Part shown: positions 2,099 through 30,886 of the stretch, piece after piece
Numbering within the stretch: position 1 is the stretch's first letter
Layout: every line of letters begins with the position of its first letter
Source: an uncultured Syntrophobacterales bacterium
GTDB taxonomy: Bacteria; Desulfobacterota; Syntrophia; Syntrophales; UBA5619
Direction of reading: 5' to 3'
NCBI GenBank assembly: GCA_903928915.1
Contig: CAIYSL010000116.1
Coordinates: 1 to 42,652, forward strand
DNA length: 42,652 nt
The notes under the pieces: generated by a model
What the model was told of the DNA's origin: nothing
Seen by the model: only the letters and a program-made list of their open reading frames with translations
Database searches by the model: none
Program-made: the position numbers and the translations under genes

Positions 2099-2580
2099 GC
2101 TGTCTCCTTTCCGATCCCGTTCCCACTCAGTATCCGCTTGGCAGCCGCGAGCGGCATCCCGCGGCCGAACCTTCCCGCTATCGCTACCGATTCACCTGCC
2201 GGACTTCCCGCCTGTGCGGAAAGGCGGGTTCCCCGGAAATCCCGGAAACCCTGTTTGTGATTCGTACCAGATTTTCCCGTCTCGCTCAACCCGAAAAACA
2301 TCCTCCCCGACAGGGCGCCCTTCATCCGGGGGTTCGAGCCGTATTTCCCCGTTTATCGCCGTTCTCGCTTGACTAACGTTGCGATTTTCCGTTTTATTTT
2401 ACGACAACCCCAATATTGGGTGTTGACAAGCAACGGCATTGCGGAGTATGTCACGCCCAAGCGGAGTGGTCGTTCATCTCACCTGGCTGCTCCGTGTTTC
2501 CGTACACGGTCCGCAGGGCACGTTACCAAGCTGGGGGCACCCTCCCCCTCCGGACATCGCTTTCCGAACCGGTAACCACC
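2099..2580. other. Intergenic region between divergent genes
   Basis: About 480 bases separate the starts of the rubrerythrin-like gene (minus) and the PilZ gene (plus). The half nearest the minus gene holds a 7-bp hairpin (2207-2213 with 2222-2228). The plus half holds a possible promoter at 2369-2397, a second weak one beginning with TTGACA at 2423, and a small stem-loop (2492-2497 with 2504-2509). I looked for a cyclic-di-GMP riboswitch because of the PilZ gene and did not see the conserved core. The open frame extends upstream through the region to 2416, but that part reads like non-coding sequence. Confidence 0.5.
2369..2397 (+). promoter_or_regulatory. Possible sigma-70-type promoter of the PilZ gene
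   Basis: A TTGACT box at 2369-2374 is followed 17 bases later by TTTTAT at 2392-2397, in an AT-richer patch of this GC-rich window. The -10 matches the consensus at four of six positions. It would give a leader of roughly 180 bases before the ATG at 2581. Confidence 0.35.
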
Positions 2581-4710
2581 ATGGCCAACGACAGTCACGA
2601 AGACGGTATTGCGCTGGATATGGCACGGCTCCGGCATCCGGCAGAGTGGCAGCCCCCCCTCCCCTCTCAACTGTTCCACCATCAGGACATCTTTCAAGCC
2701 GCCGCATCCGCTCCCCCGGTCTCACAGAAGGGGATGGTCAACACACTCCACTACATCCACTTCACCAACGGTACGGTCATGGTCCATGCCAGCGAACCGC
2801 GCTACGGCGAGGACTTCATCCTGAAGGCGTACATCGACGCCTGCCCGCCGGGAGAGATCGTCTGCCGCTTCGCCGAGGACTCACCGCCGTTTCCGGAAGG
2901 CGCGACGATCCCTCACGTGATCGTATCGGACGGCCTGTCGCTGATCCTGATCCCGATCCGGCTGACCACACTGAGGGCAGACGGGTTCACGGCGGCGCTC
3001 CCGGAGAAGGGGCATCTCCTGGGAAAGCGCCGTACGAAGCGGCATGCCGCCCGGGGGATCACCGTCGGACTCACCCAGAGCGGGTTTCTGGCCCACGGAG
3101 AGCTGCTCGATTTCAACCCTCACGCCTTCCGCGTCCGGCTGATCCCGGATGCCGGCGGTTCCTTCATCTGGCTGAACGCCCAGAGCCCCTGCACGATCTA
3201 TCTGCAGAACGGCCAGAAGACCCTGTTCTCCGGAATCTGCCGCTGCGTCCGGCAGACGGGGAGCCTTTTCGAGCGGGAGATGGTCCTTGAACCCGTCGAC
3301 GAGGATATCCGGCGCTTCCAGAAGAAGTCGGTCCGCACCCCCCGCCTGCAGGTGACGCCGACCCCGTCCGCCCACTTCGAACACCCCTTTTTCAAGCGGC
3401 CGATCCAGCGGGACATCTGTGACCTGACGTTTACCGGTTTTTCCGTCGAGGAGAAAGAAACCGAAGAGGTGCTGATGCCGGGGATGATCATCCCCAACCT
3501 GGAAATCCGGTATGCCGGCGTCCTGAAGATGAACTGCGAGGCGCAGGTCGTCTACCGCCGGCCGCAGGGTCGGGGGATGATCCGCTACGGCCTGGCCATC
3601 CTCGACATGGATTTTCGGTCCTATCGTCACCTGAGCCATATCATGGTCCATGCCGGCGACCCCCATGCCCGGTTTGCCAGTATGGTGGAGATGGACTCGC
3701 TCTGGGAGTTTCTGTTCGACACCGGGTTCATCTATCCCAAGAAGTACCACCTGCTCCAATCCTCCCGCAATGAGTTCAAGGAGACCTACCGCAAGCTCTA
3801 CCAGGAGGATCAGGAGATCGAGGCCCACTTCACGTACGAGAAGAACGGGCGGATTTACGGCCATGTGTCCATCTTCCGGGCGTACCAGCGGGCCTGGATG
3901 GTCCATCACCTCGCGGCACGGCCGCTGGACGGAAAGCGGACCGGCCTGTTCGTGTTGAAGAACGTCCTGCGGTTCTTCGACGGCCTCTACCGGTACCCCT
4001 CGATCCGCATGGATCACATGCTGTTCTATTTTCGTCCTGAAAACCACTTCCCCAACCTCTTTTTCGGAGGGTTCGCCCGGCACCTCGCGAACCCGCGGGC
4101 CTGCTCGCTGGACCTGTTCGCCTATCTCTGCCATCCCACCGCCGGACCGCACGCCCCCCTGCCGCCGGGGTGGGAGCTGACGAACTTCGACACCCGCTGG
4201 CTTCCCGAACTGGAACGATTCTACCGGCACGCCTCGGGCGGTCTGTACCTGGATGTCCTGCGCCTCGGTCAGTCGGGCGAGGAGAGCCAACCGCTGGAAG
4301 AGGTCTATCAACGGCACGGGTTCCTCCGGCAATGGCGCGTCTACGCGCTGGCCCACGAACAGACGCTGAAGGCCGTGTTCATCGTCAACCACTCCTCGGC
4401 CGGATTGAACCTCTCCGAGCTGCTCAACAGCATCCAGATCATCGTTACCGACCCGAACGCCATGCCCTGGCCGGTCCTCGCCACGGCACTGTCCCGCCTG
4501 ACTCCGGAATTCGACGTGGCGCACGTGCCGCTCTTGATCTATCCCTCTGCCTATCCGGCCACCCAGGGGCTGGCGGTCGATAAACAGTACCTGCTCTGGA
4601 TCCTCGACACCCAGTACGGGAAGGAATACCTCGAATACATGGATAAGAAGACCAAGCTTACGTTGCGCTTCCTGTTGAAGCACCTGTTGCGGAAGATCCT
4701 GCCGAGATGA
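2581..4710 (+). CDS. PilZ-domain protein with GNAT-like C-terminal regions
   Basis: A 709-residue cytoplasmic protein without signal peptide or membrane segments. Residues about 145-245 look like a YcgR-N/PilZ-type beta barrel. A PilZ domain follows at about 250-365, with an arginine pair (RTPR, residues 252-255) and a D-x-T-x-x-G motif (DLTFTG, 281-286), the places where PilZ proteins bind cyclic di-GMP. The canonical arginine motif is RxxxR; here the spacing is one shorter. The last 340 residues contain two stretches that look like acyltransferase (GNAT) folds (about 385-510 and 525-700), a tentative reading. The start is uncertain: ATG 2581 has only a weak ribosome site, the open frame runs upstream to 2416, and another ATG lies at 2734. 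Role: probably a c-di-GMP-controlled effector; substrate unknown. Confidence 0.75.
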   Translation: MANDSHEDGIALDMARLRHPAEWQPPLPSQLFHHQDIFQAAASAPPVSQKGMVNTLHYIHFTNGTVMVHASEPRYGEDFILKAYIDACPPGEIVCRFAEDSPPFPEGATIPHVIVSDGLSLILIPIRLTTLRADGFTAALPEKGHLLGKRRTKRHAARGITVGLTQSGFLAHGELLDFNPHAFRVRLIPDAGGSFIWLNAQSPCTIYLQNGQKTLFSGICRCVRQTGSLFEREMVLEPVDEDIRRFQKKSVRTPRLQVTPTPSAHFEHPFFKRPIQRDICDLTFTGFSVEEKETEEVLMPGMIIPNLEIRYAGVLKMNCEAQVVYRRPQGRGMIRYGLAILDMDFRSYRHLSHIMVHAGDPHARFASMVEMDSLWEFLFDTGFIYPKKYHLLQSSRNEFKETYRKLYQEDQEIEAHFTYEKNGRIYGHVSIFRAYQRAWMVHHLAARPLDGKRTGLFVLKNVLRFFDGLYRYPSIRMDHMLFYFRPENHFPNLFFGGFARHLANPRACSLDLFAYLCHPTAGPHAPLPPGWELTNFDTRWLPELERFYRHASGGLYLDVLRLGQSGEESQPLEEVYQRHGFLRQWRVYALAHEQTLKAVFIVNHSSAGLNLSELLNSIQIIVTDPNAMPWPVLATALSRLTPEFDVAHVPLLIYPSAYPATQGLAVDKQYLLWILDTQYGKEYLEYMDKKTKLTLRFLLKHLLRKILPR

Positions 4711-4727: not shown

Positions 4728-4756
4728 TTGACACGCAACCATCCGCTTCATATAGA
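4728..4756 (+). promoter_or_regulatory. Strong sigma-70-type promoter
   Basis: TTGACA (4728-4733, six of six) and TATAGA (4751-4756, five of six) are separated by 17 bases. The predicted start near 4763 leaves a leader of about 110 bases before the ATG of the epimerase-hydrolase fusion. It lies just after the stop of the PilZ gene, so the fusion gene need not depend on upstream transcription. Confidence 0.75.
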
Positions 4757-4874
4757 GCACGTACCGACAGGTGTGTGCGGGCCGGCAGTGGTCCCCCCTT
4801 CGCCCGGCGGGAACGGCGCGACGGCGGTTCCGGGTTCCCTGCCGTGAGGGTTACAGAAACGGGTACGATTGTTC

Positions 4875-6962
4875 ATGGGTAAGCAGGCCATTCAGATAGA
4901 AGCGATACCGCTGCAGGTAACGCTAAAAACGACGGTACGGCATGCCGCGGCAACCAGGGACGAAGGCGAGAGCATCTGGGTCCAGGCAAGGCGGAACGGC
5001 TCCACGGGGTACGGCGAGGGCTGCCCGAGGGTCTACGTGACGGGAGACGACCTGGCGACGAGCGTGCAGTGGGTCCGCGAGAATTTTTCTACCGGCAGGG
5101 TGGCGTTCGAAACGCCGGATGACCTCATGCGGTGGGGGGAACTGAACAGCTCGCTCATCGACGAGTACCCTTCCGCGTGGTGCGCCACGGAGATGGCGCT
5201 GCTCGACCTTTTTTCCCGCGAGCAGGGCTGCACCGTTGAAACGCTGCTCGGACTGGACGGCTACAAGCTCTGCGGGCGCTATACCGCCGTTCTGGGAGAT
5301 GAAACGAGGTGGAAATTCACGACCCAGGCGGATCAATACCTGATCCGGGGACTTTCGGACTTCAAGCTCAAACTGAACGGGAATCTCGAACGGGACAGGG
5401 AAAAGCTGGAGATACTCGCTGACCTGTGCGTCCAGCACAACGTCAAGGATATACGGATTCGTTTCGACGCGAATAATCTCTGGAAGGATCGCTGCGCAGA
5501 GGCCGTCGCGTACCTGACGGCTCTGGGAGGCGCGGTATTCGCCCTGGAGGAGCCCGTGGGGGCGCGCGCTGTCGCCGACATGGGCAGGATCAGCCTGGCT
5601 ATGGGGCTGCCGATCATCCTGGATGAGAGTCTCTGTACGCTGGATGATCTGTCTCTCTACCGGAATGCGCCCGGTGAATTCATCGCCAACATCAAAATAT
5701 CCCGGGTGGGAGGGATCGTTCGGGCCCTGCGATTGATCGCGGAATTGAAACGACTGGGCTGGCCGATCATCATCGGCTGCCACGCCGGGGAAACCTCGCT
5801 GCTCACACGCGCCGCGCTCGTGGCCTCCTCCGCCGCCGGCGAAAGCCTTATCGCGCAGGAAGGGGCGTTCGGCGATTATCTGATCGAACGGGAGCCGGCG
5901 GAACCGATACTGAGGTTCGGTCGGAACGGTCTTTTGAATTTGAGCGACCCCTATTACCGCAAGACGGCGCGGGGGCTGGAGCTGATCCCGGCCGAGAACT
6001 GGAAAACCGGGTTCGGCATCCGGGGACGCATGCCCGTAGCCCCCGACGACGGCTCGCCGAATATCGGCGTGCTCGCCATGCCGGACAACTACAGGATCCA
6101 CTACCGCGCCTGGGGTGACACCGCGGGCGAAGAGGTGGTGATGATTCTGCACGGGATGATGGATCATTCCGGCTGGCAGGCGCCTCTGGCAAAGGAGCTC
6201 CGCGCGCGGGCGCCGCACGTCACCGTCGTGGCGCCGGACAGGCGGGGGTTCGGCCTCAATGAAAACCGCGGGGACCTGGGTTCGATTCAAGCCGGACTGG
6301 ATGATGTGGTGCGCCACGTCGAATTTCTGAAACGGTCCTTTAACCGGGTGCATCTCGCCGGCTGGTGTCAGGGGGCGCAATACGCCGCCATTACCGCATC
6401 CCGGCTGGGAGACTCCCTCGCCAGCCTCATCCTGCTTGCCCCGAGTTTTTTCTGGAATGAGCGGTTCGGGTCCGTCCTGACGACCGCCGAAAAGATCGTT
6501 CTCAGCATGCTCGCCGCGTTCCGGCTCAAACCCGAACGGGATCAGGCCTGCATCCCGATTCCGATGGAGCCGTCCGACTTCACCCTGGTTAACGAATGGC
6601 TCGATTTTATCGTCACCGATACCCTGAAGACAACCATGGTCACCCTGAAGTCGTTAACCGTCATGGAAGATATCCAGGAGCTTTCCTCGCTCTTCTCGCT
6701 GCTGCGGAGCACGCTGCCCGTGCTTACGATCACGGCAAAGTATGACCGGATCGTGGACAATAAGAAAGTCCTGCAGTTCATCGGCGGCCACTTCACCGAT
6801 GCGGGCCGGAACCGTCTGGTCCAGCTGAAATGCGGCCATGCGCTCCAGTTTGAAAAAACCAAAGACGTTGCAGCCGAACTTCTCGCGTTCATCCGCCAGG
6901 CAGCCGAGGCTGCCCGGGATTGCGATGCCCCGGCAGGGCATTTCCAGGCCGAGCGGATCTGA
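4875..6962 (+). CDS. Fusion of enolase-superfamily epimerase/cycloisomerase and alpha/beta hydrolase
   Basis: A 695-residue two-enzyme protein. Residues 1-375 are a muconate-cycloisomerase/dipeptide-epimerase-type enolase-superfamily fold: K-x-K (K164, K166), metal ligands D198 (FDAN), E225 (LEEP) and D250 (LDES), and the opposite base K274 (IKIS). All expected catalytic residues are present. Residues about 405-680 are an alpha/beta hydrolase with oxyanion segment LHGMMD, nucleophile elbow GWCQG (Cys498 instead of the usual Ser), a likely acid Asp in AKYDRIVDN and His in KCGHALQF. The two activities could be consecutive steps, as in muconate cycloisomerase plus lactone hydrolase or MenC plus MenH, but the substrate cannot be read from sequence. 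ATG 4875 was chosen; TTG 4869 is an in-frame alternative. It has its own promoter. The HD-GYP gene follows 54 bases downstream. Confidence 0.85.
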   Translation: MGKQAIQIEAIPLQVTLKTTVRHAAATRDEGESIWVQARRNGSTGYGEGCPRVYVTGDDLATSVQWVRENFSTGRVAFETPDDLMRWGELNSSLIDEYPSAWCATEMALLDLFSREQGCTVETLLGLDGYKLCGRYTAVLGDETRWKFTTQADQYLIRGLSDFKLKLNGNLERDREKLEILADLCVQHNVKDIRIRFDANNLWKDRCAEAVAYLTALGGAVFALEEPVGARAVADMGRISLAMGLPIILDESLCTLDDLSLYRNAPGEFIANIKISRVGGIVRALRLIAELKRLGWPIIIGCHAGETSLLTRAALVASSAAGESLIAQEGAFGDYLIEREPAEPILRFGRNGLLNLSDPYYRKTARGLELIPAENWKTGFGIRGRMPVAPDDGSPNIGVLAMPDNYRIHYRAWGDTAGEEVVMILHGMMDHSGWQAPLAKELRARAPHVTVVAPDRRGFGLNENRGDLGSIQAGLDDVVRHVEFLKRSFNRVHLAGWCQGAQYAAITASRLGDSLASLILLAPSFFWNERFGSVLTTAEKIVLSMLAAFRLKPERDQACIPIPMEPSDFTLVNEWLDFIVTDTLKTTMVTLKSLTVMEDIQELSSLFSLLRSTLPVLTITAKYDRIVDNKKVLQFIGGHFTDAGRNRLVQLKCGHALQFEKTKDVAAELLAFIRQAAEAARDCDAPAGHFQAERI

Positions 6963-7016: not shown

Positions 7017-9383
7017 ATGGAAACACGAAGCGGCGACAGGAATTCTACTCCTCCGGATCAGGAACGGCCGCAGGAAGCGGCGGCGGACAATACCCCGCTG
7101 TACAATAGCCGCATCATCAAGAACTACGTCGAGTATCTGCGGGTTCACTACCCCGATATCAGCATCGCCTCTCTGCTGAAGTACGCCGACATCGAATCAT
7201 ACCAGCTGGATGACGAGGGCCACTGGCTGACGCAGCGGCAGGTGGACCGTTTCCATGAACTCCTTGCGCAGAAGGTGGATAATCCTGCCATCGCACGGGA
7301 AGTGGGGCGGTTTTCCGCAAGTTCGCAGGCTTCCGGGGCCGTGCGACAGTACCTGCTGGGGTTCTTGAGCCCCGCGATGGCATACTCGGTAATCGAGAAG
7401 ATGCATCCGAACGTCAGCCGTGCAGCGGTATTGAAGACCACCCCGCTCGGCGCTGATAAGATCGAGATGAAAGTATCATTGATGCCCAACGTGGTTGAAA
7501 AGCCCTACCAGTGCCTGAACCGGATAGGCATGCTGGAAGCCATCGCCAAGCTATTCACGAAGGAATTTGCCGTAATCGACCACCCCGTCTGTCTCCACAA
7601 GGGCGGGGATTGCTGTCTGTACACCGTTTCGTGGACCAAGACCCCGACGTTCGTCTGGAAGCGGATCCGTAACTATTCTTTCATATTCGGCATAATTGCC
7701 TGCATCCTGTCATTGAGTTACGTCCCTCCCCTGTATTGGGATGCGCTCGTCCTGTCGTTCATACTGTTGATGATGGGGATGACGCTGTACGGCGAGCATC
7801 GGGAGAAACAGGATCTGATCGTCAAGATCCGGAATCAGGGAGACGCCGCGGACCGGCTAATCGATCAGATCAACGTCGGCTACAACAACGCCCTCCTCGT
7901 CCAGGAGATCGGCCAGGCGACCTCGTCGATCCTCGACATCCAGCAGCTGCTCACTGTCATCATCGAGGCCCTGGAGAAGCGCCTCGATTTCGACCGCGGC
8001 ATGATCATGCTGGCGAATCGGGAGCGGACCCGTCTCGTCTACATGAACGGCTACGGATACAACCCGGAACAGCGGGAATACCTGGAAAACATCGAATTCC
8101 ACCTCGACAACCCCAAGTCCCGCGGGGCCTTCGTCGTCTCCTTCCGGAACCAGACCCCCTTACTGATCAACGATATCAGCGAAATCGAGAAAGACTTCTC
8201 GCCGCGCAGCGTCGAGTTTACCAAGAAGATGGGAACCCATTCCTTCATCTGCGTCCCCATCGTCTTCAAGGGAGAGTCCCTGGGGATCCTGGTCGTGGAC
8301 AACATCCGCTCCAAACGCCTGTTCAGCCAGAGCGACATGAGCCTGCTGATGGGGATTGCGCCCCAGATCGCGATCAGCATCAACAACGCCATCTCCTACC
8401 GGAAGATCGCGGAGAGTGAAAAGCGGTTCCGGTCGCTCAGCGAAAGCGCCCCCGACATCATCTACACGATCGACAGGCAGGAGGTATTCACCTACGTCAA
8501 CCCGGCATGGGAGCGGATCCTGGGCCACCGCGTCGAGGACGTGCTGGGGAGGTACTTCACCGATTTCCTCCGGCCGGACGACAGCCCGGTCAATTTCTCT
8601 TTCTTCACGGACGCCTCCGACCAGGAGCGCGCCATCCAGGATATTATCGGGACGTTCCTGCACAAGGACGGATCGGACCGGTACTTCAGCATCAGCGGCG
8701 CCCCGAACCTCGATTCGGAGGGGAGGGTGATCGGCGTGGTGGGTACGCTGAAGGACGTGACCGAGAGCGTGCTCTCCGAGGTCAGGCTCAAACAGAGCTT
8801 CGACAAGCTGCAGCATGCCCTGGGCAGCACCATCCAGGCCATCTCCAAGATCGTGGAATCGCGCGACCCCTACACATCGGGGCACCAGGAACGGGTCGCG
8901 CGGCTGGCGACGGCCATCGCAGGGGAGATGGGTCTTTCCGGGGACGTGATCGAATCGATCCGTATGGCCGCCACGCTGCACGACGTGGGCAAGATCAACG
9001 TCCCGGCGGAGATCCTGAGCAAGCCGAAGCAGCTCACCGAGATCGAGCAGTGCATGGTCCGGATGCACTCCGAGGTCGGCCACGACATCCTGGCGCCGAT
9101 CGCCTTCCCCTATCCCGTCGCCCAGATCGTCGCCCAGCACCACGAGCGGATGGATGGGACCGGATACCCCGCGGGTCTGAAGGGAACGAACATCATGCTG
9201 GAGGCTCGCATACTGGCCGTGGCGGATGTGGTCGAGGCCATGGCCTCCCATCGCCCCTACCGGCCCGCATTCGGCCTCGACCGGACGCTCGACGAGATCG
9301 AGCGCTACCGGGGGACCCGCTACGACGAGGCGGTCGTGGGCACGTGCATCAAGCTGTTCAACGAGAAGCAGTTCGTCCTCTGA
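7017..9383 (+). CDS. Membrane sensor with GAF, PAS and HD-GYP domains
   Basis: A 788-residue signalling protein. Residues 1-215 form a soluble N-terminal region that I do not firmly recognise, ending in a Cys-rich turn (LHKGGDCCLYTVSW). Two membrane helices lie at about 220-261. A GAF domain spans about 290-440, a PAS domain about 467-590, and an HD-GYP domain about 605-788 with LHDVGK (from residue 654) and HHERMDGTGYP (from 708). HD-GYP proteins hydrolyse cyclic di-GMP to GMP or pGpG; the HD, HHE and GYP motifs are intact, so activity is likely. The ATG has a fair ribosome site (AAGGTGGG, 6 bases away). It may be co-transcribed with the fusion gene 54 bases upstream. Together with the PilZ gene it points to c-di-GMP signalling here. 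Confidence 0.88.
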   Translation: METRSGDRNSTPPDQERPQEAAADNTPLYNSRIIKNYVEYLRVHYPDISIASLLKYADIESYQLDDEGHWLTQRQVDRFHELLAQKVDNPAIAREVGRFSASSQASGAVRQYLLGFLSPAMAYSVIEKMHPNVSRAAVLKTTPLGADKIEMKVSLMPNVVEKPYQCLNRIGMLEAIAKLFTKEFAVIDHPVCLHKGGDCCLYTVSWTKTPTFVWKRIRNYSFIFGIIACILSLSYVPPLYWDALVLSFILLMMGMTLYGEHREKQDLIVKIRNQGDAADRLIDQINVGYNNALLVQEIGQATSSILDIQQLLTVIIEALEKRLDFDRGMIMLANRERTRLVYMNGYGYNPEQREYLENIEFHLDNPKSRGAFVVSFRNQTPLLINDISEIEKDFSPRSVEFTKKMGTHSFICVPIVFKGESLGILVVDNIRSKRLFSQSDMSLLMGIAPQIAISINNAISYRKIAESEKRFRSLSESAPDIIYTIDRQEVFTYVNPAWERILGHRVEDVLGRYFTDFLRPDDSPVNFSFFTDASDQERAIQDIIGTFLHKDGSDRYFSISGAPNLDSEGRVIGVVGTLKDVTESVLSEVRLKQSFDKLQHALGSTIQAISKIVESRDPYTSGHQERVARLATAIAGEMGLSGDVIESIRMAATLHDVGKINVPAEILSKPKQLTEIEQCMVRMHSEVGHDILAPIAFPYPVAQIVAQHHERMDGTGYPAGLKGTNIMLEARILAVADVVEAMASHRPYRPAFGLDRTLDEIERYRGTRYDEAVVGTCIKLFNEKQFVL

Positions 9384-9414: not shown

Positions 9415-10473
9415 TCACTCGCCGTACTGTTCCCGGATCCATGACCGGTACTCGCCGCTGCGCACCCGCTCGCACCAGGCGCGGTTGTCGATGTACCACC
9501 GGACCGTCTTCCTGAGCCCCGAGGCAAAGGACTCCGCCGGCGACCAGCCCAGTTCCCCCCGCAGCTTCGCAAAATCGATGGCATAGCGGCGGTCATGGCC
9601 GGGCCGGTCCTTCACGAAGGTGATCAGCCCTCGCCGCGAACCCCCTCCGGGAGGCGGCACGAACTCGTCCACGAGATCGCAGATCATCTCCACGAGGGCG
9701 ATGTTCTCCATCTCGGCCTGACCGCCCACGTTGTAGGTCTCCCCGCGCCGGCCCCGCGCCATAATCTGCCGGATCGCCTCGCAGTGGTCGGTCACGTACA
9801 GCCAGTCCCGCACGTTCCTTCCGTCCCCGTACACGGGCAGGGGCTTCCCCTCCAGGGCGTTGATGCAGACCAGCGGGATCAATTTTTCCGGAAACTGGTA
9901 GGGGCCGTAGTTGTTCGAACAGTTGGAAAGGGTCGTGGGCAGGCCGTAGGTTTCGTGGTAGGCCCGGACGAGATGGTCGGAGGATGCCTTCGAAGCGGAG
10001 TAGGGGCTGTTCGGCCGGTAGGGAGTCTCCTCGGTAAAGGCCCCGGCGGGCCCCAGGCTTCCGTACACCTCGTCGGTGCTGATGTGGTGGAACAGCCGGA
10101 AGCCGCTCCCCCGCTCCCGTGCCGCCTCCAGCAGGTTGAAGGTGCCGACGATATTCGTCTGGATGAAACTGCCCGGCCGCAGGATCGAGCGGTCCACATG
10201 GGACTCGGCGGCAAAATGGCAGACGGCGTCGATCCCGTACTGAGCGAAGATCGCCCGCATCGCCGCGGTATCGCAGATGTCCGCGTTCCGGAAGATGTAG
10301 CTCCCGGGCCGCGCCCCGGCCACACCGGAGAGGTTTTCGGGATTCCCGGCATAGGTCAGGCTGTCCACATTGATGATCCGCCCCCCAAAATCCGGCCTCG
10401 ACAGCAGGTGGCGGATGAAGTTGCTCCCGATGAACCCGCACCCTCCGGTGACCAGCAAATTATCGATCTCCAT
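9415..10473 (-). CDS. rfbB: dTDP-glucose 4,6-dehydratase
   Basis: A 352-residue short-chain dehydrogenase of the extended family. It has the Rossmann motif GGCGFIGSN at the N-terminus, the dehydratase segment [11 protein letters not shown], and the catalytic Y-x-x-x-K as YSASK, with the family sequences [14 protein letters not shown] and [11 protein letters not shown]. It converts dTDP-glucose to dTDP-4-keto-6-deoxyglucose, an early step to dTDP-rhamnose and other deoxysugars of surface polysaccharides. The ATG at 10473 is supported by an AGGAGAT ribosome site; the frame stays open upstream into the next gene but the protein clearly starts here. The other rhamnose genes (rfbA, C, D) are not beside it. 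It is convergent with the HD-GYP gene, 31 bases apart. Confidence 0.93.
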
Positions 10474-10514
10474 GGATCTCCTTTCCCTCCCCGCGGGCGG
10501 ACGGCCCCGCAGCG

Positions 10515-13043
10515 TCAGTCCGTTCCGGTCAACACGAAGGCCGCCCAGACGCGGGGGGGCTGCCCCTCCCGCACCATCCGGAGCTGTGCCGCGCGCAGCG
10601 CCGCGGACAGCGGCTCCTTTCTCTCCAGCTGCCGGTAGAACACATCCCAGAGGCGGGAGGCCGCCCGGTCCTCGACGTACCAGAGCGTCGAGACGACCGC
10701 GGGACTTCCCGCCGCAAGAAAGGCCCGCTGCAGCGCGGCCAGGGACCGCCCTTCCGGGTCCCGCTCCGGGACGGTGTCGCAGCCGCTCAGGACGGCAGCC
10801 CGTCCCGGGGCGCGCAGCCGGGCGATCTCGGCAACGGTCAGCATCCCGTCCTGACCGGCGCCCGGCGTCAGCAGCAGCCCCGAACGCAGGGGGTCTTCGG
10901 GATCGCACACCCCCCGGACGGCAAAATGGTAGAAGTCGTACGCCGTCGTCAGCCCGGCCGCCGCCGCCTCCGACGCCTGCCCCTGGCGCAGGACCGTCGC
11001 GTGGCCCACGCGTTTGCGGATCAGCGCCAGCTCCTCCGCCCCGCGGTGGAGGTCCAGCGCCTCGTTCTCCAGATCGGGGTCACCCAGGGCGAGGATCCGC
11101 ATCCCCGCCGGCTCCTTCGCCGCCCTGACCTGCGCGAGCGACTCCAGCTCGGGAAGCTGGAACAGCGAAAATCCCTCGACGAGGAACTTTTCCCGGTACC
11201 GCAGGGCCGCAAAGGGGAGATAGGCGAGCGCGTCGTCGGGGATGAACCCGAGCCGCTCCCCGGAGACGAAGGGGATCACCGGTTTGAGCAGCAGATCGTA
11301 GGCCCTGCGGCTGAGCCGGTCCGTGTTTCGCCGGTCCCGGTCGCGCACGGCGCCGAGAAACGAGAAGACCAGCTCCCGCAGCCCCGCCCGGGTGAGTGCG
11401 ACCCGCTCCAGGTGCACCGCCGTACGGTTGATCGCCCACACATACAGGTCCTTCTCCGTCGCGAAGTACGCAAACAGGGTGGTGTTGTCGTCGAGCAGCC
11501 GCTGCGCGGCAACGCCGTCGATTCCGCCGGCGACGACCAGGGCCGGGAGCCGTCTGTCCTCCGCATCCGGACGGGCGATCAGCCCGCGATAGGCCGCCTC
11601 GGCCCGGGCGAGCCGGGCGAGCAGTTCGGCCGTGCGCGCCTCCCCGGAGATCCGCAGGATGCGCCGCTGGAGGGCGGTCATCTCCCCGCCGAGCTGACGC
11701 AGCCGCTCCAGCAGCTCCCGTTCCCGCGGTCCCCTGCCGATGTCCGCATCGGCCAGGAGCTCCGCCGTCGCGAGCCCCTTTGCCTTCTGGGCGGCCAGCA
11801 GGGCATCGTCGATCCGCCGTTCGGCGGCGTACAGCCCCACGAGCATCTCGTACAGCGCCCGTCGCTGCGGCCGCATGCTCCGGCCCAGCATCCCCGCCGC
11901 GGCTGCCCCGGGCCGCTGACCCGCGAGGATCGCGTCCGCTTCCCCGAGGACCGTGATGGCTTCCCCGACCCGCCCTGCGGCGCGGTAGTGGCGGGCCAGC
12001 AGAAGCCGCGCCCAGATCCGGTAGGGTGCCGCACGGTACCGGTCGGCAACCTCCTTCGCCGCTTCCGCAGCCCGGAGTCCCTCGCTGCGCTCGGGACCGC
12101 CGAGCCCGAGCTCGCCGTGAAACAGCAGACTCCAGAGCAGCCCCTCGCGGTGACCCGCCCGGTCCGCCAGCTCGGCCGCGGCACGAAGAAGGTTGAACGC
12201 TTCGGCACCGCCGTCTTGGATTCCCGCGTCCAGCCCCCAGAAGGCGTTCGCCTCGGCGTCACTCCTGAGCAGGCCGCGCCCGGCCAGGATCGGTCCGAGC
12301 GGCGACTGCCGCAGCTGCTCGTTTGCGGCCAGTGCCTCCCGGAGATGGGCGCTGCCTTCCCCCGCCTTCACCGCCGGCAGCCCTGCGCGCATGGGCGGGC
12401 CGTAAGCCGCCAGCAGCGCCGGCAGGCGCTCCGCCAGGACCGCCGCCGTCCCGGCGGCGAGCTCGGTGTCGCGCCGCAGCCGCAGCAGGCTGAGGTCGCC
12501 CCGGGGGGCCGGATTGTCCCGCAGGGCCTGCCGGAGAGGCTCTCGGGCCGCGGCGGGGTCGCCGCCGAGCAGGGCGATGCGGCCCGCCACGTACCCCGGA
12601 AAGGCGCTCAGCGGCGGCGCCTGCCAGCGTTCGGCCCCCTCCCGCAGCAGGGCGGACGCTTCCCGCTCGCGGCCCGCGCACTGCAGCAGGAGCGCCTTTT
12701 GCGCGAACGCCAGCCCCTCACCGGAGAAATCCCGCTGCCCGGAAAACAGCGCCGCGGCCCGGCCGATAAAATGGAGCGCCTTTTCCTCTTCCCCTTCCGC
12801 CGCGGCACGGTCCGCCACGGCAAGGAAGATCTGCGGTGCCATCGGGTCGGAAACCGCGGCGCCGAGCAGCCGGTCCCGGTATTCCCGCGGGATCTCCGCA
12901 TCGTGGGGGCCGGTAAGCTCGACCCTGGGCGGGACGGCCGGAGGGGGCACCACGGCCTTCTCGACCGCCTTCCCGCAGCCGGCAAGGACGAGCAGAACAG
13001 ACAAGGCAACGACGAGCCGCTTCGGAGCGGAACGCCTCCCCAT
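10515..13043 (-). CDS. CHAT-domain lipoprotein with TPR-like repeats, catalytic His missing
   Basis: An 842-residue protein with a lipoprotein signal: Arg/Lys-rich start, hydrophobic stretch and lipobox LAGC. Residues about 60-470 are Ala/Leu/Arg-rich helical repeats of the TPR type. The last 330 residues form a CHAT (caspase-HetF-associated with TPR) domain. The catalytic Cys is in place (SGCDT, Cys755), but where CHAT proteases carry a His before Gly (pattern HFA-x-HG) this protein has HFAVRG (R710), so it may be proteolytically inactive or use another residue. ATG 13043 (ribosome site GGGGA) gives a clean signal peptide; ATG 13076 would add 11 residues. Most known CHAT proteins are cytoplasmic, so an envelope-anchored one is notable. 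The next gene upstream encodes another lipoprotein. Confidence 0.85.
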
Positions 13044-13123
13044 CGATCCCCGACTGTACTGGAGACGCTGCATCATACACCCCTGCCGCTGTCCGTCGCC
13101 CCCTGCGGGGGAACCGGCGCGGC

Positions 13124-13906
13124 TCACAGGTACGACCGGGCCCCGAGAAAGGTCCGGCTGTAATACCCCTGGCCGAGGGAATCCCTCCTGATCCGTTTCC
13201 CCTTCCCCGGGGAGTGGATGAACTGGCCGTCGCCGGCATACACCCCCACATGGGAAACGGCAGTCCCGGTCTTGGCGAAGAAAATGAGATCCCCTTTTTC
13301 CAGAGACGCCCGATCAACGGGGGTTCCGGAGGCAAACTGCTCCCCCGACGTACGGGGGATGTCGAACCCGTTGAGCTGGTAGACCGTCATCGTCAGTCCG
13401 CTGCAGTCAAACCCGGTTTCGGCGGAAGCCCCTCCCCAGAGGTAGGGAACGCCGAGAAAACTCCGGGCAGTGCGGACCAGCTCCTCCCGGAGATAGGCCT
13501 CTCCCCGCTCCTCCCGCCTGGCCAGGGAGTACTGATCGGGGCTGACGATGAAGAATTCCTCGATCACCCCCGCAGCCCTGATCTCCTCTGCCTTGGCCAG
13601 GGCCGCTTCCCGGGTTGGAAAATTCCCGAACCGGACCTTGAACAGCCCCTTGCCGGCCACGAAGTAGGTCGCGGCGAGTCCCCGCGACTGCAGCGAGCGG
13701 GTCAGGCGGGCGGCGTTCTCCGCGACCGCGAACGCCCCGGCCTGGATCGTGTACCCCAGCCGGGGGGCCGCAGCCCTCTCGGGCACCTTCGCCGCCGGGG
13801 CAGGCGGGCGCACCGCCGGCCGGCCGCACCCCCCGATGAGGCAGAGCAGGACGACGGCCCCGGCTGCGTACCGACTCCGCCGCAGAACTGCCGTGTCTAT
13901 GCCCAT
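13124..13906 (-). CDS. SPOR and NlpC/P60 lipoprotein, peptidoglycan peptidase
   Basis: A 260-residue lipoprotein (lipobox IGGC, Cys27). Residues about 48-125 form a SPOR-type domain, which binds denuded peptidoglycan glycan strands. Residues about 140-260 form an NlpC/P60 cysteine peptidase with the complete triad: Cys168 in DCSG, His219 in SHVGVY and a polar third residue His231 in FIHS. Such enzymes cut the gamma-D-Glu-to-diamino-acid bond in murein stem peptides. The protein should sit in the periplasm, anchored to a membrane. The ATG has a GGAGGGGG ribosome site. The CHAT lipoprotein lies 80 bases downstream on the same strand and is probably in the same transcript. Confidence 0.9.
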   Translation of the reverse strand: MGIDTAVLRRSRYAAGAVVLLCLIGGCGRPAVRPPAPAAKVPERAAAPRLGYTIQAGAFAVAENAARLTRSLQSRGLAATYFVAGKGLFKVRFGNFPTREAALAKAEEIRAAGVIEEFFIVSPDQYSLARREERGEAYLREELVRTARSFLGVPYLWGGASAETGFDCSGLTMTVYQLNGFDIPRTSGEQFASGTPVDRASLEKGDLIFFAKTGTAVSHVGVYAGDGQFIHSPGKGKRIRRDSLGQGYYSRTFLGARSYL

Positions 13907-21668: not shown

Positions 21669-21957
21669 TTCGAACCTCGCGTCCGTCCCCGGCATACGTC
21701 CGGGGCGCCGTCTCCCATCCCGGGATTCGCTGCACCGCTCCCCCTCGGCACCGACCCTTCCCGACAGGAACGGGAGACGCCCCGTTGCTGCCGCGGCCCG
21801 GAGAATTCTGCCGGCCGGCCGTAAAGTTCTCCCGGCTGATGCCGATATACCCGGAAGCGACCGGTCGTACCGCTGCCCTGCCCCGCACCGGATGCCAGAA
21901 GGCGGCGGCACCGCGGATCTGTTCCCCGAAACGGCGACCGCCGGAGGAGGCACCCCC
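21669..21957. other. Intergenic region upstream of the GH26-type lipoprotein
   Basis: About 290 bases of GC-rich sequence. I see several short GC palindromes (for example around 21809-21820) and a TATACC-like box near 21845, but no convincing -35, riboswitch core or small gene. The open frame of the downstream gene extends 66 bases into it (to 21892) without a good start context. Confidence 0.4.
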
Positions 21958-23784
21958 ATGGAGCGTTCGAAACCCCTGTTCGCGGCAGCCGCCGGGGCCG
22001 CCCTCTGCCTGCTGGTGGCGGCCTGCGGAGGCGGAGGCGGGTCCACGGCCGTCCCGCCCGTCGGCCCGGTCGTACCGCCCGCACCGCCGGCAAACCTGAT
22101 CGTAAACGCGGATTTCAGCCAGGGGACCGCCGGCTGGACCCCCACGGGTTCCCCAACCCTCTTAGTGGTCAGCGACCTCCACGGCCCTGCCCTGCGGCTC
22201 GCCGGCCGGAGGGTGGCCGCGGACGGCATCCGGCAGGATCTCCAACCGACCGCCCTGACTGCCGCCGACAACGGCCGGCCCGTCGTTACCCGCCTGAAGG
22301 TGAAGCTCACCCAGCCCGCCTCTGTCCGGGCCTTTCTGGACCTGGCCGGCACGGAGGGCGCGGCCCGAGTCCTGCTGGCTGAACGGGTCGTCCGCCAGAC
22401 CGACCAGTTCATAACCGTCCAGGGGGTGAGCACCCTTGCCTGGCAGGGGACCCTGGCAACGGCGCGCTTCTCCGTGGAAGTGGGCCGGCTCCCCGAACGG
22501 CTGTACCCGGACTACGTCATCGACGATGTCCTCATGGAGCGGGACGGCGACGCGGACGGCCTGTCCGACGGCGAAGAGGCCGGCCTCGGGACCGATCCCT
22601 CCCGGCCGGACAGCGACGGCGACGCCATGCCCGACGGCTGGGAAGCAGCCAACGGTCTCGACCCGCTGAAGAACGACGCCGGCCTCGACAGGGACGGCGA
22701 CGGTTTTACGAACGTGCAGGAGTACTGGGCAGCTACCGACCCGCGGGATGCGGCCGCCTACCCCGGGAAACCTTCCAACCCGAATCTCACCGCCGACGGC
22801 CGCGCCCTGTTGCGGTACCTCGCCCTGCTGCCGGCGCAGGCGGCGAACCGCGTGATCGCCGGCCAGCACGTCTTCGACGCCGCCTCCTCCGACAACCAGG
22901 GCTACGGCTACAACGTGGCCGCCCTGGAGGAGCTGACCGGCAGGGGGCTGGGCATGGTGGAACTCCAGTACGACGGCGCCACGGGCAGCCAGTATCAGAT
23001 CGCCAGCGTCAACGCCCTCGCCGAGACGATCTGGAAGCAGGGGGCGCTGGTGGAGATCAAATGGAACCCCTGGATCCCCTGGAGCGGCAAGCCCTTCAAC
23101 GATACCAGCGGGTTCGCCGAGGTGGATATCGCCGGGATGCTGGCGCAGGACTCGCCCGCCAACGGCCGGGCCATGGCAACCTTCAACGGCTACCTCGACA
23201 CCGTGGCCGCCGGCCTCGCGGAGCTGCAACAGAAGAACATCGTCGTCCTCTGGCGGTTCATGTCCGAGATGAACGGGGCGTGGTTCTGGTGGGGCCGCCG
23301 GCCGCAGGCCGACTACGTCGCCCTCTGGCGGTACATCCACGCCTATCTGACTACGGCCAAGGGGCTGAACAACCTCATCTGGGTGTACGAGTCCGATTCC
23401 GGGATCCACGGCGCCATGCCGTCGGACTACTACTTCCCCGGGGCGGACGTGGTCGACGTGGTCGGCCATAACTTCTACAGCGACACCTGGGAGCTTCCCT
23501 ACGACCTGGAGGGTCTGTACCGGGAGTACGGCAAGGTGTACGCCTTCCCGCAGGCCGGCTCGGCGGGCAATTCGGCGGTGCGCAACAGCCGCTTCGCCTG
23601 GGACAACATGGTCATCATCAACGGCATCCGGGCCCGCTACCGGCGCGCCTCCTATTTCTGCGTCTGGAACAGCTTCACCTTTGCCGCCGGCCCGCAGTAC
23701 GTGGCCATCGTGGACCAGCGAAACGCCGCGGCGCTTCTGAACGACCCCTGGGTGGCGACGCGAGAGGACCTGGCCTGGCGGTAG
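21958..23784 (+). CDS. Lipoprotein with Ca-type repeats and GH26-like glycosidase domain
   Basis: A 608-residue lipoprotein (lipobox VAAC, Cys23) with a Gly/Pro-rich tether. Residues about 45-180 form a beta-rich, carbohydrate-binding-like domain. Residues about 185-255 hold D-x-D-x-D-G repeats (DADGLSDGEE, DSDGDAMPDGWE, DRDGDGFTNVQE) of the thrombospondin type 3/dockerin-like calcium type. Residues about 275-560 resemble glycoside hydrolase family 26 (beta-mannanase and relatives): IAGQHVF, then FMSEMNGAWFWWG with the acid/base Glu437. At the expected nucleophile site the sequence is FPQAGS (Gln532) rather than Glu, and the His usually before the acid/base Glu is Ser. ATG 21958 has a GGAGGAGG ribosome site. 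It is probably on the outer surface; activity is uncertain. Confidence 0.8.
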   Translation: MERSKPLFAAAAGAALCLLVAACGGGGGSTAVPPVGPVVPPAPPANLIVNADFSQGTAGWTPTGSPTLLVVSDLHGPALRLAGRRVAADGIRQDLQPTALTAADNGRPVVTRLKVKLTQPASVRAFLDLAGTEGAARVLLAERVVRQTDQFITVQGVSTLAWQGTLATARFSVEVGRLPERLYPDYVIDDVLMERDGDADGLSDGEEAGLGTDPSRPDSDGDAMPDGWEAANGLDPLKNDAGLDRDGDGFTNVQEYWAATDPRDAAAYPGKPSNPNLTADGRALLRYLALLPAQAANRVIAGQHVFDAASSDNQGYGYNVAALEELTGRGLGMVELQYDGATGSQYQIASVNALAETIWKQGALVEIKWNPWIPWSGKPFNDTSGFAEVDIAGMLAQDSPANGRAMATFNGYLDTVAAGLAELQQKNIVVLWRFMSEMNGAWFWWGRRPQADYVALWRYIHAYLTTAKGLNNLIWVYESDSGIHGAMPSDYYFPGADVVDVVGHNFYSDTWELPYDLEGLYREYGKVYAFPQAGSAGNSAVRNSRFAWDNMVIINGIRARYRRASYFCVWNSFTFAAGPQYVAIVDQRNAAALLNDPWVATREDLAWR

Positions 23785-29998: not shown

Positions 29999-30169
29999 CG
30001 CATCACGTCCTTCTCCCGGGGAACTGTTTCCCGGATATCCCCGGCGCAGGGTGACAGCACAGCTCCGGGAAGAGCGGCGGTGGCGCGGCGGTCTGCCGGT
30101 TCCCGGCCGGCAGGGGATCAACCGGACGTCCCAACCCTTACCGTGTTCCACAGAAAGGAGGAAAACGGC

Positions 30170-30886
30170 ATGACCGGTAAAACGGCAAAGGCCATTTTCT
30201 GGGTGGGAACGCTGTCTTCGCTCATCATTTTTCTCTGGCTTACCTACGATTTCCACCAGCAGGAACCGAAGTACGCGAAGACCGACAAGATCAGCGCCCA
30301 GGTCGTGGCCGGCAAGAAGGTATGGCACAAGTACAACTGCAACGACTGCCACACCATCCTCGGGTTCGGCGCCTACTACGCACCGGACATGACCAAGGCC
30401 TACTTCCGGCTGGGGGAAAACAACATCGTCTCCATCGTGATGAACCCGGAGAAGGTGTACAAGAACTCCTTCCGCAAGATGCCCAACCTGGGGGTGACCA
30501 AAGAGGAGGCAGCGAATCTGGTCCAGTTCCTCAAATGGGTGGGCACCATCGAGAACCGCAAGTGGCCGCCCCAGGATGAAAAATTCGTCAAGGCCTACAA
30601 GCTGCGTGAGACAAGCGCGCATACGCTCAACAAAGCGGACATCGTGATGGGGGCCTGCGGCGGCTGCCACAGCCTGGAGAACCTCGGCCGCAGCATCGCC
30701 AGTGATTTCAACGACATCGCGAAAACTACCTCCTTCGACCGCGCCACCCTCGTGAAGTTCACCCTCAACCCGCAGTCCGTCCGGCCCGATTCCGGCATGC
30801 CCAACCAGAACGTCTCCCCCGCTACGGCGGAGCTGATCGCCGATTTCATCTTGAGCCTGAAAATCGGGAAGGAGGTGCAGAAATGA
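30170..30886 (+). CDS. norC: Nitric oxide reductase subunit C, diheme form
   Basis: A 238-residue membrane-anchored cytochrome. One N-terminal helix (about 8-25) anchors it, then comes a NorC-type cytochrome c domain with haem motif CNDCH (Cys57-His61), NorC-like TILGFGAYYAPDM and a possible axial Met104 (RKMPNLG). A second c-type domain follows with CGGCH (Cys163-His167) and possible Met210 (SGMPNQ). Usual NorC is about 150 residues with a single haem c, so this subunit carries an extra C-terminal cytochrome domain. It delivers electrons to NorB for reducing 2 NO to N2O in the periplasm-facing membrane. ATG 30170 follows an AAGGAGG ribosome site, and its stop overlaps the norB start by 4 bases. 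Confidence 0.9.
   Translation: MTGKTAKAIFWVGTLSSLIIFLWLTYDFHQQEPKYAKTDKISAQVVAGKKVWHKYNCNDCHTILGFGAYYAPDMTKAYFRLGENNIVSIVMNPEKVYKNSFRKMPNLGVTKEEAANLVQFLKWVGTIENRKWPPQDEKFVKAYKLRETSAHTLNKADIVMGACGGCHSLENLGRSIASDFNDIAKTTSFDRATLVKFTLNPQSVRPDSGMPNQNVSPATAELIADFILSLKIGKEVQK

Follow-up and report, generated by a model that had tools for sequence, protein, structure and literature searches.

A conserved enolase-superfamily and alpha/beta-hydrolase fusion encoded in a proposed enzyme-sensor module of the Syntrophales

What is the biological function of a single bacterial protein in which an enolase-superfamily enzyme is joined to an alpha/beta-hydrolase? Such a protein is encoded in the window, the stretch of 42,652 nucleotides analyzed here, which comes from an uncultured Syntrophobacterales bacterium. 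The fusion consists of ordinary parts in an unusual, conserved combination. We propose, at a probability of roughly 45%, that it is a genuine two-domain enzyme that acts on a carboxylate-bearing small molecule within a dedicated enzyme-sensor module, in which the enzyme makes, trims or removes the ligand of the sensor. The gene and its surroundings are organized as follows.

2416..4710, plus strand: partner 1, a YcgR/PilZ-type N-terminal half followed by a C-terminal domain of about 340 residues; the start is probably nearer 2611
4728..4756, plus strand: candidate sigma-70 promoter read from the sequence, TTGACA-17-TATAGA, directly upstream of the fusion
4875..6962, plus strand: fusion gene, 695 aa, enolase-superfamily half followed by alpha/beta-hydrolase half (ORF, Pfam and 17 full-length orthologues)
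4875..5909, plus strand: enolase-superfamily half of the MLE-subgroup type, residues 1-345 (PF13378; KxK lysines K164/K166, metal ligands D198/E225/D250, K274 and E329)
5910..6065, plus strand: linker, residues 346-397, conserved in the alignment as PYY..GL..IP.ENW..GFG
6066..6959, plus strand: alpha/beta-hydrolase half (PF12146) with Cys498 (TGT, 6366-6368), Asp624 and His655
7017..9383, plus strand: partner 2, a sensor with V4R-like, GAF, PAS and HD-GYP domains in this order (Pfam GAF/PAS/HD; HD-GYP motifs by pattern)
7086..7719, plus strand: V4R-like sensor domain of partner 2 with a putative zinc site, Cys-(22)-His/Glu-(2)-Cys-(7)-Cys (V4R profile and Cys spacing)

The fusion ORF runs uninterrupted from the ATG at 4875 to the stop at 6962, and a TTG at 4869 is the other possible start. 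The N-terminal half matches MR_MLE_C (PF13378) over residues 149-345 (E = 7e-21; 75.3 bits against a cut-off of 29.4) and displays the three acidic metal ligands and the lysines on strands 2 and 6 that characterize the MLE subgroup. K164, K166, D198, E225, D250 and K274, together with the acidic residue E329, are invariant in all 17 full-length fusions, including that of the window. The C-terminal half matches Hydrolase_4 (PF12146) over residues 420-636 (E = 3e-17; 63.4 bits against a cut-off of 27), within an alpha/beta-hydrolase region that Pfam places at 420-667, and contains the nucleophile-Asp-His triad of this hydrolase type as C498, D624 and H655. Asp624 and His655 are invariant across the 17 fusions, and the nucleophile is Cys in 15 of them and Ser in the other two. 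An earlier note, made from the letters alone, had read the protein as an apparently functional bifunctional polypeptide with both halves complete and their catalytic residues in place, and the open frame, the two profile matches, the conserved catalytic sets and the orthologues bear this out. Its Cys nucleophile holds for the window and most orthologues, but not for the two with Ser. The same note credited the gene with a strong promoter of its own. A promoter at 4728-4756 is plausible, and two orthologues of family f14 (L105 and L110) carry a perfect TTGACA-17-TATAAT upstream of the fusion; the -10 element of the window is imperfect, however, and our promoter scan rule does not list it because TATAGA lacks the final T. 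An AlphaFold2 model of the fusion, built from an alignment of 5-6 sequences, was poor (pLDDT 55.6).

The fusion is a recurrent gene in its order, one of anaerobic-type bacteria. A search across genomes recovered 17 full-length copies of 675-731 aa, the window included, distributed over 16 genomes from this order, so that the two domains are not always separate. The whole proteins share up to 71% identity with that of the window, and the orthologous hydrolase halves share 56-65%. No frameshift or stop was found between the domains, and orthologues from independent assemblies have the same architecture, which rules out both a chance arrangement and an error of assembly. The fusion or its remains occur in 18 of the 155 genomes of the order, in families f1, f10, f14 and f16; one of these copies ends at a contig end and another is broken by an assembly gap. 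No unfused hydrolase half was detected among the 155 genomes, where every match is fused or a remnant, or among 395 genomes of the phylum, where the window genome gave the sole match to the hydrolase profile at E <= 1e-15. The fusion thus looks like a single invention restricted to the order.

Two f14 genomes (L065 and L066) encode a 404-405-aa orthologue, 59-62% identical, that retains the conserved linker and the gene neighbourhood of the fusions and lacks the hydrolase half, which was not found elsewhere in either genome. Their branch is nested inside the fusion clade in the tree. The hydrolase half was therefore lost there, and we rejected the alternative in which f14 preserves an ancestral, unfused form. 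Because these two genomes dropped the hydrolase and kept the enolase in place, the hydrolase half is not indispensable, and the substrate handover that had been suggested from the fusion of the two domains is unlikely to be obligatory.

Which known enzymes do the two halves resemble? Among solved structures, the enolase half comes closest to the dipeptide epimerases and N-succinylamino acid racemases of the MLE subgroup (3jva, 1jpm and 2p88), which share its fold and its KxK/D-E-D/K set at 18-24% identity. This kinship could suggest a peptide or murein enzyme that combines a dipeptide epimerase with a peptide or ester hydrolase. However, the fusion falls far below the cut-off of every dipeptide-epimerase equivalog in NCBIfam (43.7 bits against 343 and 40.9 against 500, for example), and it differs from these enzymes in being hydrolase-fused and sensor-linked. 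Its eighth-strand segment reads QEGAFG, with no sign of the DxD motif that dipeptide epimerases have at the end of strand 8, whereas a dipeptide-epimerase-like relative (L126) has DLD in this segment, where the alignment is gapped. We thus consider a role in peptide or murein metabolism quite improbable. Even less credible, to the point of being nearly dismissed, is a MenC-MenH-like menaquinone enzyme. The precedent for it is PHYLLO of plants and algae, a menF-menD-menC-menH fusion in which an enolase-superfamily enzyme likewise precedes an alpha/beta-hydrolase in one polypeptide (PMC2412073), and the MenC-type family TIGR01928 is the top NCBIfam match of the fusion. That match falls short of its cut-off, though, with 62.6 bits where 200.65 are required, MenD exceeded its cut-off in none of 8 genomes, nearly complete ones among them, and no men genes were present among the neighbours read. 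PHYLLO is a eukaryotic, tetramodular protein of the menaquinone/phylloquinone route, whereas the fusion is bacterial, has two domains and mostly a Cys nucleophile, and occurs without MenD.

Two further ideas of the earlier note were not supported. Cycloisomerization of muconate followed by lactone opening is contradicted by a score of 45.3 bits against a cut-off of 334.95 for muconate cycloisomerase (TIGR02534) and by the absence of intradiol dioxygenase (PF00775) from all 11 genomes searched. The Cys nucleophile had also been read as the pattern of dienelactone hydrolase, but DLH was not among the Pfam matches of the fusion, and Cys and Ser interchange among the orthologues. The hydrolase half instead matches PF12146 and PF00561, and its nearest relatives are of the monoacylglycerol lipase/ABHD6 type, with ABHD6 as the best PDB profile match. 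It shares the common fold and the Asp and His positions with these hydrolases and differs from them in its prevalent Cys and in being always fused to an enolase in the genomes searched.

Examination of the gene neighbours, proposed in the earlier note, provided the most informative evidence. In every orthologous locus with enough flanking sequence, across four families of the order, the fusion forms a conserved trio with the PilZ protein and the sensor. The sensor gene begins 55 bp past the fusion on the same strand. Partner 1 resembles the c-di-GMP-bound structures of VCA0042, YcgR and MrkH in a Foldseek comparison that used a low-confidence AlphaFold2 model (pLDDT 41.8; alignment of 5-6 sequences). 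Its C-terminal domain of about 340 residues (3688-4707) has about 60 invariant columns among 19 sequences and is possibly an enzyme; Pfam and NCBIfam gave no convincing match to it, and PDB profiles gave none. A GNAT/FeeM-like acyltransferase was considered for this domain and found no support in any of the three resources. The PilZ-linked N-acyl amino acid synthases Nas343 and Nas354 (PMC4897644) likewise combine PilZ and a second domain in one protein, a resemblance that serves only as a lead since the second domain of partner 1 lacks detectable similarity to acyltransferase families and the domain order differs.

The genomic slot of the trio is also revealing. It is delimited by genes for an ABC-F ATPase and a rubrerythrin-like protein, followed by the PilZ gene, on one side and by an RmlB or lipoprotein gene on the other. 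In three sister genomes (L029, L030 and L031), the same slot holds the PilZ gene and the sensor along with another member of the enolase superfamily, which is unfused and has KxI or KxL in place of KxK. This suggests that the slot calls for this type of enzyme. This unfused KxI/KxL family lies mostly in the same slot (L029:11344-12603, L030:9430-10659, L031:8772-9935, L033, L034 and L035). In L031 and L034, its gene adjoins one that by eye looks like a PP-loop amidotransferase gene. In two fusion loci, short ORFs that lie between the PilZ gene and the fusion (L023:5210-5614, 134 aa, and L025:7664-7987, 107 aa) are remnants of a sensor N-terminus, which suggests that insertion of the fusion module at the slot displaced older genes. 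Two plus-strand ORFs downstream of the trio (9595-10638 and 10926-13163) were discarded as neighbours because they are shadows of the minus-strand genes for RmlB (9418-10473) and a lipoprotein-like protein (10524-12977).

Elsewhere in the window, positions 21892-23784 encode a protein of glycosyl hydrolase family 26 that also contains a bacterial TSP3 calcium-binding repeat. An ORF at 30080-30886 encodes a membrane-anchored, cytochrome c-like protein bearing a CxxCH motif and is followed by a 441-aa ORF; by eye, the two are possibly a nitric oxide reductase pair.

What might the sensor detect? The V4R profile of Pfam matches 13 of 25 members of the sensor family, with a best E-value of 8.4e-6, and the window member itself matches weakly (0.15). 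The Cys3-Glu/His zinc site is more uniform: C143, H/E166, C169 and C177 are nearly invariant in the 25 members, with one Ser exception, and the ligand spacing is constant. The zinc ligands of the phenol sensor DmpR are Cys151, Cys177 and Cys185 (PMC7264223), and the spacing of these three Cys residues (26 and 8) is the same as in the V4R-like domain. The likeness concerns the Cys spacing of the zinc site. Furthermore, the output of DmpR and MopR is a sigma-54 activator, whereas the sensors described here carry HD-GYP or other signalling domains. Judged by motif, HD-GYP is present in 23 of 51 long sensors, and others differ, such as the histidine kinase of L069. We found no paper on a V4R/HD-GYP combination in the open-access literature.

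Sensors of the DmpR/MopR type use their V4R domains to recognize catabolic substrates (PMC7264223; PMC10715001), which raises a different view of the locus. The fusion could serve ordinary degradation, its substrate being for instance an aromatic acid, a cyclic acid or an N-acyl amino acid, with the sensor reporting that growth substrate and no dedicated signal involved. The linkage may then reflect no more than control of an enzyme by a sensor, the role that V4R regulators have in catabolism, and enolase-sensor linkage alone does not separate a substrate from a signal. Against a catabolic operon, no degradation pathway lies beside the fusion in the loci read, no intradiol dioxygenase was found in the 11 genomes searched, and the genes that consistently accompany the fusion encode a receptor of the c-di-GMP type and a sensor of the c-di-GMP phosphodiesterase type. 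We regard this view as possible, though doubtful. An assignment that we hold to be unlikely makes the fusion a tailoring enzyme of a polyketide- or fatty-acid-like product of the aryl-polyene or ladderane kind, with the sensor and the PilZ protein as regulators of the pathway. In f14 (L065:11332-18269, L066, L110, L111 and L112), the trio indeed adjoins a fatty-acid/polyketide-like cluster of beta-ketoacyl synthase, FabG, dehydratase, LolA-like, FAD oxidoreductase, AMP ligase and B12 radical SAM genes, and in several orthologous loci a gene for a B12-binding radical SAM protein lies next to the trio or between its members. However, the related cluster of the window genome resides on another contig (contig 32, L103), and two genomes without the fusion (G001 and G019) have the FAD-oxidoreductase marker, whereas two incomplete genomes with the fusion (G004 and G018) lack it.

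The association of enzyme and sensor extends far beyond the fusion. Among enolase relatives collected from the phylum with their flanks, mostly at about 30% identity, 51 of 66 loci have the sensor domain in the flanking sequence, an approximate count that includes a few duplicates or contig ends. About a quarter of the loci have no sensor in the sampled flank, and several of these lie at contig ends. A genome-wide search of 20 genomes located one to three copies of the sensor domain in 18, most often one. Of these 18 genomes, 16 have their best copy next to the enolase gene; in a 3-Mb genome, the two would fall within about 13 kb of each other by chance with a probability of less than 1%. The linked enolases keep the metal ligands, with a conservative D-to-E replacement in some. 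Far relatives keep K166 and have Arg at position 274, and the KxI group lacks K166, so that the reaction may differ between lineages. A lipid-A-type acyltransferase gene (PF03279) adjoins the enolase in three far relatives (L067, L071 and L074) as a second recurrent neighbour. We found no description of this phylum-wide linkage in the open-access literature.

How would an enzyme-sensor module of this kind operate? We infer which reactions take place, in what order they occur and that the enzyme controls the sensor ligand, the reactions being deduced from the established mechanisms of the enolase superfamily and alpha/beta-hydrolases. The hydrolase half would form an acyl intermediate on Cys498 with the assistance of His655 and Asp624 and open an ester, thioester or lactone to uncover a carboxylate. 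Any enolase-superfamily enzyme needs a carboxylate, and its supply by the hydrolase step offers a simple reason for the fusion. The enolase half would bind this group via Mg2+ on D198, E225 and D250, and K166 or K274 would take the alpha-proton, leading to racemization or epimerization or to beta-elimination. The two steps could also occur in the reverse order. Because proteins of the fusion lineage have both Lys bases, whereas the far relatives and the KxI group each lack one, the residue pattern marks the fusion as the form best equipped for two-base racemization or epimerization, and it may also perform elimination or cycloisomerization. The resulting compound, or one a step away, would be the ligand of the adjacent V4R-like sensor, whose HD-GYP output would lower c-di-GMP, and the YcgR/PilZ partner would read the c-di-GMP level.

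We found no description of a bacterial enolase-hydrolase fusion in the open-access literature. The fusion is a bacterial counterpart of the enolase-hydrolase pairing in PHYLLO, with a Cys/Ser exchange at the nucleophile. The enzyme-sensor linkage is more interesting than the fusion itself. We offer the tentative and speculative idea that the enolase family and the V4R-like sensor constitute an undescribed synthase-receptor, or signal-degrader-receptor, pair across the phylum, of which the fusion would be the most elaborate version; the enzyme would set the level of a self-made small molecule, and the sensor would convert it into a c-di-GMP or kinase output. To our knowledge, little is known of chemical signalling into c-di-GMP in Syntrophales and other Desulfobacterota. 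Given that the sensor domain is usually single-copy, lies beside the enzyme and has an HD-GYP output in some lineages and different outputs in others, its ligand could be directly findable. If the linkage reflects ligand control, it would assign a specific enzyme and a specific receptor to a small molecule in Syntrophales and other Desulfobacterota.
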